Assembly (NCBI GenBank): GCA_002401055.1
Contig: NVRZ01000084.1
Coordinates: 1-10,863 of the forward strand
Length of the DNA stretch: 10,863 bases
Source of the DNA: Bacteroidota bacterium
Lineage (GTDB): Bacteria; Bacteroidota; Bacteroidia; NORP154
Direction: 5' to 3'
In this document: in pieces, positions 1-7,043 of the stretch
Numbering within the stretch: the stretch's first letter is position 1
Layout: every line of letters starts with the position of its first letter
Notes under the pieces: generated by a model
The model's database searches: none
The model's input: only the letters and a program-made list of their open reading frames with translations
What the model was told of the DNA's origin: nothing
Program-made: the position numbers and the translations under genes

Positions 1-2042
1 GCTGGGTCATCCCATAGATATACATAAGGTGCTGCACCTCCATTCGCAGAAACCGTAGCACTACCATTGTTGCCCCCGTTACAACTAACATCAGTTGTGG
101 AAGAGATAGTGGCTGTAGGCCCGCCAATGTTTGATACCACAGCTGAAGTTGAATCTGAACATCCGTTATTATCTGTAACTATAACGGTGTAATTTCCTGG
201 GCATAAGCTGTCGGCGACATCTGTGCTTTGGGCCAGAGGATCATTCCATATATAAGTGTACGGAATAGATCCACCGAAAGCTGAAGATCCTATGACTCCG
301 TCACAATTCCCACATGTTGCATCATTTACATTGGTAATAAAAGCTGTTGGCCCAGCTGCCTGCGCAATTGTAACTTCACCCGTCTCAGTACATGACGCAT
401 CATCAGTTACAACAAACGAATATGTTCCTGCGCACAAGCCAGTAGCTGTTAGGTTTGTTTGTGCATTTGAGTCATCCCAAAGATATGTGTATGGGGGCGT
501 ACCTAAAAAAGCTGTTAGTGTTGCGTCGCCGTCGCAGGCGGTACAAGAAGTATTTGTGGATCCGCTAATGATAGCGACCAAATTTCCCGGCTCCATTACT
601 GTTGCTGTGGCTGAATCCATACAGCCGCTTCCATCTGTAACTATTACGGTGTAGGTGCCTTCTGATAATCCAAAAGCGGTATCAGTTGTCTGGGCAAGTG
701 GGTCGTCCCATAGATATGTAAATGGCCCAGTGCCACCAGTAACGGTTACTGACGCTTCTCCATCTCCTGCACCACATGCACTCTCATTAACAGCATTTGT
801 TGCCAATGTGAATGAGACACCACCTCCAACTACAACAGTATCATCTTCCGAACACAGATTCGAATCGGTAACGGTAACTACGTAAGTGCCTGGACAAAGA
901 CCAGTTATTGACGAAGTGGTTTGAATTGGATTTGTGTTCCAAGAGTAGGATAGGGGAGAAACTCCTCCAGCCACACTTACCGAGGCAGTGCCGTCACATA
1001 CACCGCAGCTTGCATCATTGCCGGAAGCTGTAAGTGTCATACCACTTCCACCTGTCGTTCCTACAGTGACACTTTCAGTAATAAAGCAAGTACTTGAGTC
1101 TCCAATAATCACATCATATGTTCCAGCGCAGAGGCCAGTTGCTATCGCGGTTGTTTGGTTAAGTGGGTCGTTCCATTGATACCCGTAGGGCGGAATTCCG
1201 CCGGTAACATTGGCAGTGGCACTTCCATCGCAGGCGCCGCAACTAGATTCATTGGTAAATGAAATGGTAGCTGCCAGGTCGGAGGAATCAGCAATAGTTG
1301 CCGTAGTAACTTCTGAGCAGCCTAAACTATCGGTAACTGTTATGTTATATGTACCGCTGCAAAGACTTGTAGCAGTTGAATTTGTTTGGTTGGCAGGATC
1401 ATTCCATGCATACATCAATGGAGTATTACCACCAGTAACGCTAACAGATGCTGAACCGTTGCAAGAAAACATGCAATATGTGTTGTTCATAGTTGTAACG
1501 GAGAGCGTCATGCCACTACCGCCTGAAGTTCCGACGCTTGCGCTTATTGTGTCCTGGCATGAATTTGAATCAATAACTGTTACTGTATAAATTCCAGGAC
1601 ATAGTCCAGTGGCTATTGAGTCGGATTGACTTGATGGGTCGTCCCAAATGAACGTGTAAGGTGGAACGCCACCACTTACGGATACAGCTGTACTTCCGTC
1701 GCATGCTCCGCAACTAGATTCATCCGTTGAGGAACTACTTAGAATCATGGTGCTGGCCGCCGCGATAACGTCAGCTGAAGCAGAATCAATATTTAGCATC
1801 ATATCGACAACATAAACCGTGTAGTTTCCCGGGCATAGGCCCGTTGCAATCGATGTGGTTTGACTAGCCGGATCATTCCATAGGTAGGTATATGGTGGGC
1901 TACCTCCAAATACAATAGCGGTTGCCGTGCCATCACAGGCTCCACAGCTGGTTTCCCCAGAGGCTGATACAAATACACTTAGCGTTTGCGAGAATGCAGT
2001 GCTTCCAATTAATATGAATGCTAACAATAGATTGAATTTCAT
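1..2042 (-). CDS. Large secreted adhesin with tandem SprB-type repeats (N-terminal part, runs off left edge)
   Basis: The minus strand is open without a stop from an ATG at 2042 to the left edge (680 residues visible). Residues 1-19 form a signal peptide ending in 'AFSQ', so the protein is exported. The rest is a tandem array: eight complete repeats and the start of a ninth, beginning near residues 32, 110, 189, 267, 345, 422, 499, 576 and 653, a period of 77-79 residues. Each reads roughly S-C-G-A-C-D-G, then GG.PPYTY.W.DP..QT, GLCPGTYTV.VTD and a late Cys. This is the SprB-repeat pattern known from Bacteroidota gliding adhesins, which are moved or displayed at the cell surface by the gliding/T9SS machinery. 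The C-terminus, where a T9SS sorting domain would be expected, lies outside the window. Four Cys per repeat suggest disulfides. Family assignment is firm; a role in motility, adhesion or matrix is inference. Upstream is a divergent intergenic region shared with the methyltransferase. Confidence 0.88.
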   Translation of the reverse strand, partial: MKFNLLLAFILIGSTAFSQTLSVFVSASGETSCGACDGTATAIVFGGSPPYTYLWNDPASQTTSIATGLCPGNYTVYVVDMMLNIDSASADVIAAASTMILSSSSTDESSCGACDGSTAVSVSGGVPPYTFIWDDPSSQSDSIATGLCPGIYTVTVIDSNSCQDTISASVGTSGGSGMTLSVTTMNNTYCMFSCNGSASVSVTGGNTPLMYAWNDPANQTNSTATSLCSGTYNITVTDSLGCSEVTTATIADSSDLAATISFTNESSCGACDGSATANVTGGIPPYGYQWNDPLNQTTAIATGLCAGTYDVIIGDSSTCFITESVTVGTTGGSGMTLTASGNDASCGVCDGTASVSVAGGVSPLSYSWNTNPIQTTSSITGLCPGTYVVTVTDSNLCSEDDTVVVGGGVSFTLATNAVNESACGAGDGEASVTVTGGTGPFTYLWDDPLAQTTDTAFGLSEGTYTVIVTDGSGCMDSATATVMEPGNLVAIISGSTNTSCTACDGDATLTAFLGTPPYTYLWDDSNAQTNLTATGLCAGTYSFVVTDDASCTETGEVTIAQAAGPTAFITNVNDATCGNCDGVIGSSAFGGSIPYTYIWNDPLAQSTDVADSLCPGNYTVIVTDNNGCSDSTSAVVSNIGGPTATISSTTDVSCNGGNNGSATVSANGGAAPYVYLWDDP

Positions 2043-2295: not shown

Positions 2296-3372
2296 ATGTA
2301 CGACGGACATTTTGAAGAAGATAATTTAACCCCAGATGAAGCAAAAAGTCAAGCTGATATGTTGGCCTGGCATCCTATTATGTTCCAGGTAGCTCGAGTA
2401 TTGAGTTCAACGGGAATATTGAAGGAGGTAAAATCGGGTAGAAAGAAAGGGATTACGCCGGAAACCATTGCGGATAAATTGAGTATTCCGCTCTACGGAG
2501 TAAAAGTATTGCTGGAAGTTAGCTTGAGTATTGGTCTCACCAAGTTGATGGCTCATAACACTTACACAATTAGTAAGATGGGTTATTTTTGGTTGCTCGA
2601 TAAACAGATAGAAATCAATATGAATTATGTGCACCATGTTTGTTACAAGGGCATGTTTCATCTTGAGGAGGCTATTCTGACCAATAAGGCAGCAGGGCTG
2701 AAGGAACTGGGGCCATGGGAAAAAATTTATGAAGGGCTGTCACTTTTGGATGAACCCATCAAGAAAAGTTGGTTTGATTTTGATCATTATTACTCAGATG
2801 TTGCATTTAAGAAAATATTTCCGGAGATATTTAAAGATAATCCAAAAATGATATTGGATGTAGGCGGAAATACTGGAAAGTTCTCAATTGCTTGCTGTGA
2901 ATACAATAAGGATGTTAAAATGACCATTGTTGATTTGGCGGGACAATGGAATAGAGCCAAAAAGAATATTGATGAACTTGGTTTGTCAGACAGGATAAGT
3001 GGGCACGTTATGGACGTATTAATTGATGATCCTGTTTACCCGAAAAATGCAGATATTGTTTGGATGAGTCAGTTTTTAGACTGTTTCTCAGAGGAAGAAA
3101 TTGTGCACATAATCTCCAATGCCTCAAAGAGCATGCATGAGAATTCTGCGCTGTATATTATGGAATTGTTTTGGGATAGGCAGAGCCATCCTGTACCAGC
3201 ATACTGCCTTCATGGAACTTCGATATATTTTACAGCCATGGCCAATGGAAATAGCAAAATGTACCACTCTGAAGATATGCGACAATGCGTGGAAAAGGCT
3301 GGTCTAAAGGTGGTAAAGGATGTGCAGGTTGAAAATGGTTACCATACGCTCTATAGGTGCGAGCTGGCATAA
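2296..3372 (+). CDS. Class I SAM-dependent methyltransferase, COMT-like (O-methyltransferase family 2 architecture)
   Basis: The 358-residue protein has the two-part layout of plant COMT-like and bacterial polyketide O-methyltransferases. An N-terminal winged-helix dimerisation region (about residues 25-100, with 'ITPETIADKLSIP') precedes a Rossmann-fold catalytic domain. The SAM-binding glycine motif is LDVGGNTGKF (187-196), the acidic residue that would bind the ribose hydroxyls is D213 in 'IVDLAG', and a post-strand-4 segment reads 'WMSQFLDCFSEEE' (256-268). In classical family members the last segment carries the catalytic His ('LHDW'); here Asp262 sits at that place. The protein has no signal peptide and should be cytoplasmic. 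Substrate cannot be told; related enzymes act on phenols and polyketides, and a pigment or secondary-metabolite role is only a guess because no biosynthetic neighbours are in view. The start is the first ATG after the candidate promoter. Confidence 0.85.
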   Translation: MYDGHFEEDNLTPDEAKSQADMLAWHPIMFQVARVLSSTGILKEVKSGRKKGITPETIADKLSIPLYGVKVLLEVSLSIGLTKLMAHNTYTISKMGYFWLLDKQIEINMNYVHHVCYKGMFHLEEAILTNKAAGLKELGPWEKIYEGLSLLDEPIKKSWFDFDHYYSDVAFKKIFPEIFKDNPKMILDVGGNTGKFSIACCEYNKDVKMTIVDLAGQWNRAKKNIDELGLSDRISGHVMDVLIDDPVYPKNADIVWMSQFLDCFSEEEIVHIISNASKSMHENSALYIMELFWDRQSHPVPAYCLHGTSIYFTAMANGNSKMYHSEDMRQCVEKAGLKVVKDVQVENGYHTLYRCELA

Positions 3373-3442: not shown

Positions 3443-4819
3443 ATGAAATCTATCAAACTTTGCTATCTATTGGTGATCGTATCGGCACTTATTTCGACTA
3501 CCACAATTCTCAATGCTCAGGCAATTCTTCTTCCATCAATTGGAGTGGGGGCGCTGCCGAATGATGCCGATACCGTGTGCGGCTACCCGATTCCTGTTAA
3601 TCCGGATATGACATTCGACTCATATCCATTATTTGCGGGTGATACCATTCCTAACTTTACCTTATATGATCTCAATGGAGATTCCATGAACATGGCTGAT
3701 TTGCTGGGCTATGGCAAACCAGTTGTGCTGGTGGCGCTCAATATCACCTGCCCTTATGTGAGGAATAAGGTTTCTATCTATAATGATATATATGCGAACT
3801 ATAGCAACCAGGTTACGATTATTGGAATATATCAACTTGAGGCTCACCCTGATGATGATTACAGTCCGAATTCAGGAACTTTTGGAAATGTTAGCGCAAA
3901 TGTAAACGAGGGGATTGTAGTGAACCAGCACGCTACTTACGCAGACAGAAAAGCCGCCGCCCAAGATCTGATAACAAATGAGGGGCTGAATTTCCCTGTT
4001 TATATGGATGGACCATGCAACGAGTGGTGGGAGAATTTTGGCCCGGGCCCGGCAACAGGGTATATTATCAATGCTAATGGAACCGTATTTGTAAAGCACG
4101 GGTGGTTTGATAAGAATGCCAATGGACATGATATATATTGTGACCTCGATAGTTTGATTGGTATAACCTGCAGTGGGTCATCTCCAACAGGTGATTTTAC
4201 CTTTAATCTTACCACCAACGACACAGTTGTTGGATATCCGGGTACCATGATTGATGTAGAAGCGGATTTGATTAATACATCTGGGGCCGATGTGCTCGTT
4301 GAAATAATCCGGGATCAGAATAATTTAGATATGGGATGGGAATCTGCTATTTGTGCCGACATATGCCTGAATCCTCAAGGTACGGAATATACATTCTTGT
4401 TGAAGGATGGAACGACTCAACATTTCTGGCTGCACTTTTATTCTGACGCTGGATCAGAAGGGGAGGGGCATGCGAAAATGGTGTTCCGCGATGCGAATGA
4501 CTTTTCGAACCAATACATAGTTGATATGTACGCTGTTTCTGAGTTTGCCGCTTTAAATATAAATCAGGTGAATACCCAATCTGATATCAGTGTTTTTCCA
4601 AATCCTTTTGGCAATATGGCTACAATAGCCACAAATGGACAAGCGATCATTTCAAGGATGGGAATCTATGATGTATCTGGCCAGTTGGTTCGTATTGAGG
4701 CGAACATAAACTCAGGAACAGTAAACATCAAAAGAGGTGAACTCTCCCCTGGATTGTACTATTTAGAGCTGCAAAGTATGGATGGCATTATCGGAAGACA
4801 GAAGATCCTTATCCAATAA
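3443..4819 (+). CDS. Secreted deiodinase-like thioredoxin-fold protein with T9SS C-terminal sorting domain
   Basis: This 458-residue protein begins with a signal peptide (about 1-25, 'STTTILNA'). Residues about 65-240 form a thioredoxin/redoxin fold that matches iodothyronine deiodinases: 'ITCPYV' at 101-106 puts Cys103 where deiodinases have selenocysteine in 'CTUPP', followed by the conserved 'EAH' (133-135), 'NQH.TY.DR..AA' (161-173) and 'NFGPGPATGYIIN.NGTV' (198-215). The upstream Cys of the deiodinase motif is Ile101 here. Residues about 250-365 look like an Ig-like beta domain with two close Cys (304, 308). From about 380 the tail 'VFPNPF...GLYYLELQ...KILIQ' is a T9SS sorting domain, so the protein should be carried across the outer membrane and anchored or released. 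Deiodinase fold is well supported; the substrate is unknown and need not be iodinated. A general peroxiredoxin or thiol oxidoreductase role is the alternative. Confidence 0.85.
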   Translation: MKSIKLCYLLVIVSALISTTTILNAQAILLPSIGVGALPNDADTVCGYPIPVNPDMTFDSYPLFAGDTIPNFTLYDLNGDSMNMADLLGYGKPVVLVALNITCPYVRNKVSIYNDIYANYSNQVTIIGIYQLEAHPDDDYSPNSGTFGNVSANVNEGIVVNQHATYADRKAAAQDLITNEGLNFPVYMDGPCNEWWENFGPGPATGYIINANGTVFVKHGWFDKNANGHDIYCDLDSLIGITCSGSSPTGDFTFNLTTNDTVVGYPGTMIDVEADLINTSGADVLVEIIRDQNNLDMGWESAICADICLNPQGTEYTFLLKDGTTQHFWLHFYSDAGSEGEGHAKMVFRDANDFSNQYIVDMYAVSEFAALNINQVNTQSDISVFPNPFGNMATIATNGQAIISRMGIYDVSGQLVRIEANINSGTVNIKRGELSPGLYYLELQSMDGIIGRQKILIQ

Positions 4820-4823
4820 GTAT

Positions 4824-4946
4824 TTACTGTCTGATACCAATGGCAATAGGAATCTTTAGTATAAAAGGTTCAAAAACCTGAGCCAGATATAGATATCCCT
4901 TATATTCTATTGCTGTAGAGCATCCTGATATTTCCTCTCCTGTTTA
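4824..4946 (-). pseudogene. Detached C-terminal segment of the paraoxonase-like gene
   Basis: Reading on in the same minus-strand frame past the TAA (4944-4946) gives 39 more residues before a second TAA at 4824-4826. The segment includes 'SGCSTAIEYKGYLYLAQVF' and 'EPFILKIPI', matching the C-terminus of paraoxonases ('GSTVASVYKGKLLIGTVF...LYCEL' in PON1). This strand normally closes the propeller. There is no frameshift, only one stop codon. With it the full gene would be 4824-5771 (315 coding positions counting the stop position) and would end 4 bp from the convergent gene that stops at 4819. Confidence 0.75.
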
Positions 4947-5771
4947 ATCTTGGTAGACAACCTTGGAAGTCCCCTCTTTTAAGTCTAATTCGTAGACCAT
5001 TGATGGTGACTTATTCTCTTTCTTCTTTGCGTGTTTAATGAACTTCAAGATTTTGGGATGCGCCGTAACAAGTAGCGTTTTCCTTTTTGTGATCGTGAAG
5101 TTATCACCGCCGCTAATTTTATACAGATTCTCTTTTTTATATTTTGTTTTACCTTCTCTTTCCACCAGTTTATAAACTCTATTCCCCATTGTAGTGCTTA
5201 GGTAAATCACTTTGCCAATGACATGAATACCATTGGCGTAAGAATATCCTTTTGATATGATGGTACACGTGCCCTCTTTATACCTTGCCAGTGAGCCACC
5301 GAATAAATTATCATTTGAAAAGTAAAAATGGTCCCTCCCAACTGCGTACAAATCATTTGGGTGAGAAATACACTTATTCTTAAAGCTTACCTCTTCAAAC
5401 AAGGTATCTGGTGTTATTCTGAATCGGATTACCTCGCTCTCTTTCTTGCTAACGTGGTTGATGACAAATAAATAGCTCTGGCCGTCAGCGTGCAGAAGAC
5501 TAATGCCATGAGGTGCAAAGCGCCTGTCTTCTTTAAATGTCAATTCCAATTTTCTGGCCTTTCCTAAACTAAAATCGTATTCCCAGATGCCGCTATCAAA
5601 GGTATTTTCATCTCTACGCTCAGAGCAAGAGATAAGAATCCTTTTGTTAGCAATCGTATCAAGGACCATGTCCTCAGGGCCGCCTCCCACTAAAATTTGA
5701 GACTTGTTGGCGGTTTGCGCCAGACTATATACTGGAATAAAAAGAAAGAGCAATAGTTTACCGACAGACAT
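4944..5771 (-). CDS. Paraoxonase/arylesterase-like calcium beta-propeller protein, truncated by an in-frame TAA
   Basis: The 275-residue frame starts at an ATG 21 bp after the cupredoxin stop, so the two genes probably form an operon. Residues 1-19 are a signal peptide (ends 'YSLAQ'). The body follows serum paraoxonase in order: 'GPED' (31-34), 'APHGIS' (86-91), 'VINH' (103-106), 'HPND' (137-140), 'HFYFSND' (148-154), 'YANGI' (178-182), 'GGDNFTI' (221-227) and 'AHPKILKF' (237-244). By this alignment all PON1 calcium ligands (E33, D34, N139, D140, N180, D223, N224) and both active-site His (H88, H106) are kept. Such enzymes hydrolyse lactones and aryl esters; the substrate here is unknown. A TAA at 4944-4946 stops the frame before the last propeller strands, which are still readable downstream (see the separate entry). 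The product is thus probably a truncated propeller, unless the stop is read through or is an error. Confidence 0.85.
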   Translation of the reverse strand: MSVGKLLLFLFIPVYSLAQTANKSQILVGGGPEDMVLDTIANKRILISCSERRDENTFDSGIWEYDFSLGKARKLELTFKEDRRFAPHGISLLHADGQSYLFVINHVSKKESEVIRFRITPDTLFEEVSFKNKCISHPNDLYAVGRDHFYFSNDNLFGGSLARYKEGTCTIISKGYSYANGIHVIGKVIYLSTTMGNRVYKLVEREGKTKYKKENLYKISGGDNFTITKRKTLLVTAHPKILKFIKHAKKKENKSPSMVYELDLKEGTSKVVYQD

Positions 5772-5792
5772 ATTGCCAAGTTAGTAAGCTTG

Positions 5793-6761
5793 CTACTTCA
5801 CAAACTTTCGGTAAGCGCTACCGGATTCTGTTACTACGCTTACAAAATATAGTCCGCTTGGAAGATCGGAGACATCAATATTGACCTGTAGATCGTTCGC
5901 TAGGTTAGAATAGCTCAGCTCTTTTAGGATCTTTCCCTCCACAGAGATTAAACTAATTATTGCATCACCATCAACTTTGTTTCCTGAGATGACAAGACTC
6001 AAATTATTAGATGCAGGGTTGGGATATATCGGCGCTAGGTTTAGCTGGCTATTTCCTGCTGCATTCTCAATTCCGTTGGTATTGGAAAACACGTAAGCAA
6101 CGGTTGCCAGATTATTTGGTGGGAAGAGGTCTCCTGCCATATCGGCTATACCATAGCCAGTGCTGTCACTGGTGTCTGCAACGGTAAATTGTGATGTGAA
6201 GGTATAATCAACTGAATCGCCGGGGTTGAGTGTGCCAGTCCATATTTCATTTAAGGGTGTATTTCCAGGTCCGTTCAAGGAAAACTTAACGGGTATACTG
6301 GTTATGACCGTGTTGGAGTCATTGTGCAGACGTAACGTTACTGTGTAGCTGCTGTTAAGTGTGAGCGTACTCCCGGCTGCCGGAGCAACCACCATATGGC
6401 AACTCGCATCTCCAGGCTCTAGAACTGTTATAACTCCTGTCATTCCGCCGGTTACATGCACATCACATTGATAATTATACGTGCCGGCAATGGTAAACCC
6501 GTAGGTAAACACCCATGCACTGGCAACTGCATTTCCGAATGATTCAGGATTTGATGGATAAGTTGTTGTTGTACCATTTACATTGTGACTGCCTGAGGTA
6601 TTCGTCCAGCGTACTGAGTCTCCTACAATGATTGTAATGTTAGCCGGAGAAAATGAAAAGGCGTTGGCTACTACGTCCCAGGTTGTTTGGGCGTTGCTTA
6701 TGTTCGTAACCAATAGAAATGAGAATGCTAATACAAATAGTCTTGTTGTATGAATTTTCAT
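5793..6761 (-). CDS. Secreted cupredoxin (type 1 blue copper) protein with T9SS C-terminal sorting domain
   Basis: The ATG at 6761 was chosen over an upstream ATG at 6866 because it directly begins a signal peptide ('RLFVLAFSFLLVTNISNAQ', residues 7-25); product 322 residues. Residues about 27-113 are a plastocyanin/azurin-like domain: 'ANAFSFSPANITIIVGDSV' followed by His59 in 'SGSHNV', Cys99 in 'YQCDVH', His102 and Met107 in 'GGM', the complete H-C-H-M ligand set of a type 1 copper site. Residues about 118-226 resemble a CARDB-like beta-sandwich ('YTVTLRLHNDSN', 'LNPGDSVDYTF'). From about 240 the tail 'IYPNPAS...LPSGLYFVSVV...RKFVK' is a T9SS sorting domain. The protein should bind copper and carry electrons at or outside the outer membrane; the redox partner is not visible. 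The paraoxonase-like gene follows after 21 bp. Confidence 0.9.
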   Translation of the reverse strand: MKIHTTRLFVLAFSFLLVTNISNAQTTWDVVANAFSFSPANITIIVGDSVRWTNTSGSHNVNGTTTTYPSNPESFGNAVASAWVFTYGFTIAGTYNYQCDVHVTGGMTGVITVLEPGDASCHMVVAPAAGSTLTLNSSYTVTLRLHNDSNTVITSIPVKFSLNGPGNTPLNEIWTGTLNPGDSVDYTFTSQFTVADTSDSTGYGIADMAGDLFPPNNLATVAYVFSNTNGIENAAGNSQLNLAPIYPNPASNNLSLVISGNKVDGDAIISLISVEGKILKELSYSNLANDLQVNIDVSDLPSGLYFVSVVTESGSAYRKFVK

Positions 6762-6788
6762 GGTAGGGTTTGTTTTAATATGATGCGA

Positions 6789-6796
6789 TAAAGATA
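6789..6796 (-). promoter_or_regulatory. Possible -7 element for the cupredoxin gene
   Basis: On the minus strand TATCTTTA, one mismatch from TAnnTTTG, lies about 27 bp upstream of the start at 6761. No convincing TTG partner is found at the usual spacing, so this is weak. A 7-bp inverted repeat (TGCTGAG at 6814-6820, CTCAGCA at 6856-6862) lies just upstream of it. Confidence 0.2.
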
Positions 6797-7043
6797 GCGT
6801 GTTTTTATTAGAATGCTGAGAGCAGGTGTTTCTCAACTTAGCTGTATAGTTACAACTCAGCACCAAGAATTGATTAGATAAAAAGACCTATCGGCAAAAT
6901 TTTGGGCATGAATCGCAAAAGTGAAGAGAAATAAGAGCGCTGCTATGAAGTATCGTTTCATCACGGTACTAATATAGTGATTCAACTATCGGTTAATGTA
7001 GTATATAGGCCCTACAGGGTGAAAGCTCTGAGCGAGGAAAGAG

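Follow-up and report, generated by a model that had tools for sequence, protein, structure and literature searches.

The closest described enzyme to the gene studied here is serum paraoxonase 1 (PON1), for which the available text of PMC7766523 describes the roles of the active-site histidines and of the calcium ligands. According to the same text, loss of the C42-C353 closure, by replacing the cysteines that tie the N-terminus to the C-terminus, inactivates the enzyme. Bacterial genes that carry a single in-frame stop codon have been described by Belinky et al. 2021 (PMC7918605), and the portion of that paper considered here argues that prokaryotes may often read through such stops and that many of the genes are under purifying selection and are not pseudogenes, while assuming that the vast majority of its cases are without functional recoding.

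Here, we analysed a stretch of 10,863 nucleotides (the window) from a draft genome that is 60.48% complete and consists of 269 contigs. An earlier note on this DNA had described a paraoxonase homologue cut by a single in-frame TAA with its C-terminus intact behind the stop, and this observation was confirmed, as the coordinates, the length of 275 residues, the TAA at 4944-4946, the 39-codon continuation and the gap of 4 bp were all reproduced from the sequence. The minus-strand frame opens with an ATG at 5771 and runs for 275 codons (5771-4947) to the TAA at 4946-4944, after which 39 more codons remain open in the same frame up to a TAA at 4826-4824, which is separated by 4 bp (4820-4823) from the convergent ORF at 3443-4819. 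The one in-frame TAA is the sole lesion, and the frame is otherwise intact. The features of the locus are collected in Table 1.

Table 1. Features of the interrupted paraoxonase-like gene and its flanking genes (positions in the window).
Feature	Position	Strand	Basis and remarks
Convergent gene with deiodinase/redoxin-like domain and T9SS sorting tail	3443..4819	+	Domain search; ends 4 bp from the family-length stop
TAA close to the usual coding end of the family	4824..4826	-	Alignment of relatives, C-terminal profile
39-codon in-frame continuation, corresponding to the conserved C-terminus	4827..4943	-	C-terminal profile (E = 1.5e-18); strands as modelled for relative P0004, in which it forms the last three of the propeller
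Lone in-frame TAA within the coding length of the family	4944..4946	-	ORF translation, genome search, C-terminal profile
Paraoxonase-like gene, open part, 275 codons	4947..5771	-	Signal-peptide-like N-terminus (by eye); counterparts of the catalytic His and calcium ligands
Upstream same-strand gene with cupredoxin-like domain and T9SS sorting tail	5793..6866	-	Domain search

The earlier note had also recognised a paraoxonase C-terminus beyond the stop, and a profile search bears this out. Using a C-terminal profile made from 42 relatives, with the window excluded, we compared the 304 six-frame segments of the window that have 20 or more residues. The tail matched the profile with E = 1.5e-18, and the next best segment reached E = 0.056. 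The score of the tail (60.3 bits) lies within the leave-one-out range of the 42 relatives (30.6-82.2 bits, median 70.7), 8 of which scored below it and 34 of which did not. In addition, when nine relatives were compared with the window protein, the local identity of the tail (44.8-71.4% over 28-35 columns) surpassed the figure for the body (30.1-59.5%) in all nine.

In-frame extensions behind stop codons were also surveyed in a sample of the same genome, made up of the window, 18 contigs in full and the starts of two more (186,682 bases, about 7% of the genome). ORFs of at least 150 codons were chosen mechanically, which gave 136 ORFs, 119 of them with a stop. Extensions of at least 30 codons were present behind 22 of the 119, and the tail in the window ranked third by codon score. 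The top-ranking extension, of 113 codons, encodes a MazG domain that is nearly complete and follows a complete PorP/SprF domain; it was rejected as an interrupted gene because this arrangement points to a separate gene. The second, of 391 codons, was rejected because it qualifies as an ORF of its own in the sample. Codon scores were negative for each of the ten remaining extensions of 30-60 codons, and no look-alike of an interrupted gene besides that in the window was found among the 22 long extensions of the sampled 186,682 bases. When neutral decay of a frame of the length of the tail was simulated, no further stop had appeared in 15.8% of the runs at 5% divergence and in 3.9% at 10% divergence, and when indels were added (at an assumed 0.1 per substitution), the frame was still undamaged in 0.1% of the runs at 5% divergence. 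The tail has acquired no further stop, so either the stop is young or the frame behind it is still selected.

The relatives were compared both as proteins and in genomes, and the two sets of counts overlap in part. We assembled 123 family proteins from the 15 matches of a first protein search and the best 120 of the 371 matches of a second. The C-terminal motif lies within 25 residues of the end in 121 of the 123, a count that is partly circular for the 13 proteins that are also rows of the alignment behind the profile. The two proteins without the tail are that of the window and a 159-residue record named partial, and apart from these no naturally shorter form was found among the 123 proteins, which include the best 120 of 371 matches of the second search. 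Searching 395 genomes of the class in six frames, with the source genome among them (E <= 1e-15, at most five candidates scored per genome), gave family matches in 43 genomes, in 52 rows that represent 49 places, as three genes were split into two rows each. A stop lay within the match in two of the 52 rows, namely in the window (TAA) and in genome G153 (TAG). The latter was rejected as a second interruption since that gene naturally ends at the TAG, and a stop inside the gene was found in no row other than that of the window among the 52 rows from 43 of the 395 genomes. Except for a stub of 111 codons (L012) and the window frame, the inspected family frames have the C-terminal motif at their end. 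No complete relative examined ends naturally at the position of the TAA, and none carries a stop codon at this place, so that both comparisons proposed by the earlier note came out in favour of an interruption where relatives are uninterrupted. The closest other protein among the 15 matches of the protein search is 59% identical, and no intact allele was found.

Two further copies deserve mention. The copy in genome G009 stops short of the C-terminus, and the PON-like copy in genome G072, L042 (G072:C89:23244-24104), has a frame of 287 codons and matches the profile only from position 58 on. Contig edges are a likely cause in both, and L042 may instead have lost its N-terminus. When six other genomes of the genus and family were searched, the gene was found in one of them only (G005), where its neighbours differ from those in the window. 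The five genomes without the gene are 69-91% complete, and their incompleteness may hide some copies. The paraoxonase-like gene is accessory and patchy even among close relatives.

The truncated protein matched PON1 with E = 1.1e-11 and the family profile matched it with E = 2.8e-41 over PON1 residues 82-350, which indicates that the family is homologous to PON1; the modelled fold of a relative agrees. The gathering score of the Pfam family Arylesterase (PF01731) is 21.3 bits, and both the window protein (19.7 bits) and the relative P0004 (14.4 bits) score below it. No Pfam or NCBIfam name was obtained above the cut-off for the window protein, and a few relatives among the best 120 of 371 matches carry PF01731 in their precomputed annotation. 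Judged by these scores, the protein is PON-like rather than a full Pfam member. The earlier note had stated that all calcium ligands and both active-site histidines are kept. The alignment supports this for seven residues, as H88, H106, N139, D140 and N180 aligned with PON1 H115, H134, N168, D169 and N224, and D223 and N224 aligned with PON1 D269 and N270. The remaining pair, E33/D34, lies outside the local PON1 alignments and would be the counterpart of PON1 E53/D54. All counterparts of the histidine dyad and of the calcium ligands fall within the first 275 residues. A lactonase- or arylesterase-like activity of the family is a prediction from sequence.

The model of P0004 is a complete six-bladed propeller of the paraoxonase type that is closed by the C-terminus, and the stretch corresponding to the tail accounts for strands 285-291, 294-299 and 304-309. 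In the model of the 275-residue product, these last three strands have no counterpart, and the propeller is left incomplete. The N-terminal strand (24-28 in P0004) was not assigned in the short model either, as would be the case if closure of the ring needed both ends. Since the two models are of different sequences, this comparison is suggestive only. The truncated protein has an AlphaFold mean pLDDT of 91.1, which is no measure of stability, and a PDB search with its model returned PON1 first, which decides nothing. The residue aligned with PON1 T332 also lies in the tail, and, going by the structure titles, this PON1 position was changed in directed-evolution structures. No conserved counterpart of the PON1 C42-C353 pair was found in eight aligned relatives. 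The earlier note expected a propeller deprived of the strands that close it to fail to fold normally, which is in line with the models and with the known requirement of PON1 for N-to-C closure. By structure and by analogy with PON1, and not by sequence decay, the 275-residue product is likely to be unstable or inactive.

NCBIfam models were run on four ORFs of the window. The convergent ORF (3443-4819) matched the model 'deiodinase family protein' with an E-value of 2e-17, yet its 63.7 bits are below the cut-off of 250 bits. The same-strand gene at 5793-6866 (minus strand) lies 21 bp before the start of the paraoxonase-like gene, and the two may possibly share one transcript. This ORF was called from a TTG, and its true start is probably an internal ATG, as seen by eye. 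Further away, the ORF at 3-2042 (minus strand) runs off the window edge and contains seven SprB repeat stretches (PF13573, E = 5.5e-50); SprB repeats are typical of large surface or gliding proteins of bacteria with a T9SS. The ORF at 2296-3372 (plus strand) comes near the FlxJ-family methyltransferase model, with 465.9 bits against a cut-off of 560 bits. A promoter and terminator scan added nothing.

Among the four readings offered by the earlier note, a very recent nonsense mutation is the best supported, as the tail shows no decay, none of the complete relatives examined terminates at this point and the distribution of the gene is patchy. We put the probability that the stop is a recent nonsense mutation, in an accessory gene for a secreted, paraoxonase-type lactonase/arylesterase-like protein, at roughly 0.72. 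A single nonsense mutation (TAA 4946-4944) would have arisen recently in an otherwise intact frame, translation would stop at 275 residues, and the secreted product would be unstable or inactive for want of the final three strands, which close the six-bladed propeller. The allele may still be segregating or may represent a young pseudogene, and it would be tolerated because this lineage could do without the gene. This is consistent with the presence of the tail in 121 of 123 proteins and of an internal stop in this row alone out of 52, with a tail that is more conserved than the body in 9/9 relatives and scores within their range (60.3 bits), with a gene found in G005 only among the six other genomes of the genus and family, and with the three strands of the relative that the truncated model lacks. 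Against it, the frame contains no second lesion, many genes of this kind are argued to be under purifying selection in the portion of PMC7918605 cited above, and the pLDDT of the truncated protein is high, though this is no test of stability. The main rival, which we hold to be rather unlikely, is that the organism has a sense codon and that the TAA is a base-call or strain-mixing artefact of a fragmented draft. One wrong consensus base or minor-strain base is plausible in a 60.48%-complete assembly of 269 contigs, and the rest of the frame is intact; however, homopolymers at the site do not exceed three bases, tandem repeats are absent from it, and no intact allele turned up, the best other match being 59% identical. 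Moreover, the protein database contains an identical 275-residue protein whose longest contig is given as 15,213 bases, against 10,863 here, and this may point to another assembly in which the protein ends in the same way.

Programmed or tolerated readthrough of the TAA, yielding some full-length enzyme, would fit the intact and family-like frame behind the stop and the argument of Belinky et al. that readthrough may be frequent, but it appears very doubtful. TAA closes 70 of the 119 sampled ORFs (TAG 28, TGA 21), so it is the commonest sampled terminator and not a scarce one, interruptions are not recurrent in the sampled 7% or so of the genome, and no examined relative has a stop at this place. 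The RNA of 103 nt from the stop onward folds worse than its shuffles (z = 1.28; 186 of 200 shuffles were at least as stable), and no Rfam family matched in the window. The cited portion of PMC7918605 itself assumes no functional recoding in the vast majority of its cases. The recoded stop suggested by the earlier note is therefore without support. Slightly less probable again is that the TAA is kept as a dial, with low-level readthrough giving a little full-length secreted lactonase, most of the product being discarded and the frame behind the stop under selection. More improbable still is that the short product of 275 residues is functional as it stands, as an enzyme or a binding protein: the catalytic and calcium-ligand counterparts do lie in the first 275 residues, but no other complete member examined is shortened here, the lost tail holds both the T332 counterpart and the closing strands, and PON1 is inactivated by loss of its closure, as described in the cited text of PMC7766523. 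A phase-variable ON/OFF switch at the stop can hardly be credited. The continuation is intact, and a weak inverted repeat pairs 4942-4957, which overlaps the stop, with 5938-5953 (16 nt, 81% complementary, 980 nt apart), but this repeat looks like chance. No tandem repeat occurs at the stop site, the repeats found in 4400-6000 are all short and none is perfect, and a search of its own 60.48%-complete genome gave no second copy of the gene or of its 3' end. The frame is broken by an in-frame stop rather than by a slipped repeat, and the phase-like state proposed in the earlier note is left without support.

Taken together, these results suggest that the stop most probably reflects a recent and ordinary mutation that inactivates a dispensable gene, or else an assembly error, rather than a new reading of the genetic code. 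The gene should be flagged as interrupted, as a possible pseudogene or consensus error, and should not be annotated as a short enzyme; beyond annotation, the consequence is small. The patchy family of PON-like secreted proteins sits around the Pfam cut-off, and most relatives are therefore listed without a domain name.

Compared with the bacterial genes with a single in-frame stop described in the cited portion of Belinky et al. 2021 (PMC7918605), the gene likewise has one nonsense codon in a conserved frame and is apparently young, whereas the window comes from a single draft genome and thus gives no allele frequency or estimate of selection. In comparison with serum paraoxonase 1 (PDB 1v04, 3sre, 9r0q), the window product ends before the last three strands, the C42-C353 pair is without a conserved counterpart in the eight relatives, and the window protein is under the Pfam Arylesterase cut-off (19.7 against 21.3 bits). 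Another close system is the set of PON-like secreted proteins (P0002-P0009 and relatives) that bears no family name and is mostly from Bacteroidota, as far as the records are named. These proteins have a similar frame length and the same C-terminal motif and are 31-57% identical to the window protein over the body, and, unlike the window gene, the complete members examined are uninterrupted.
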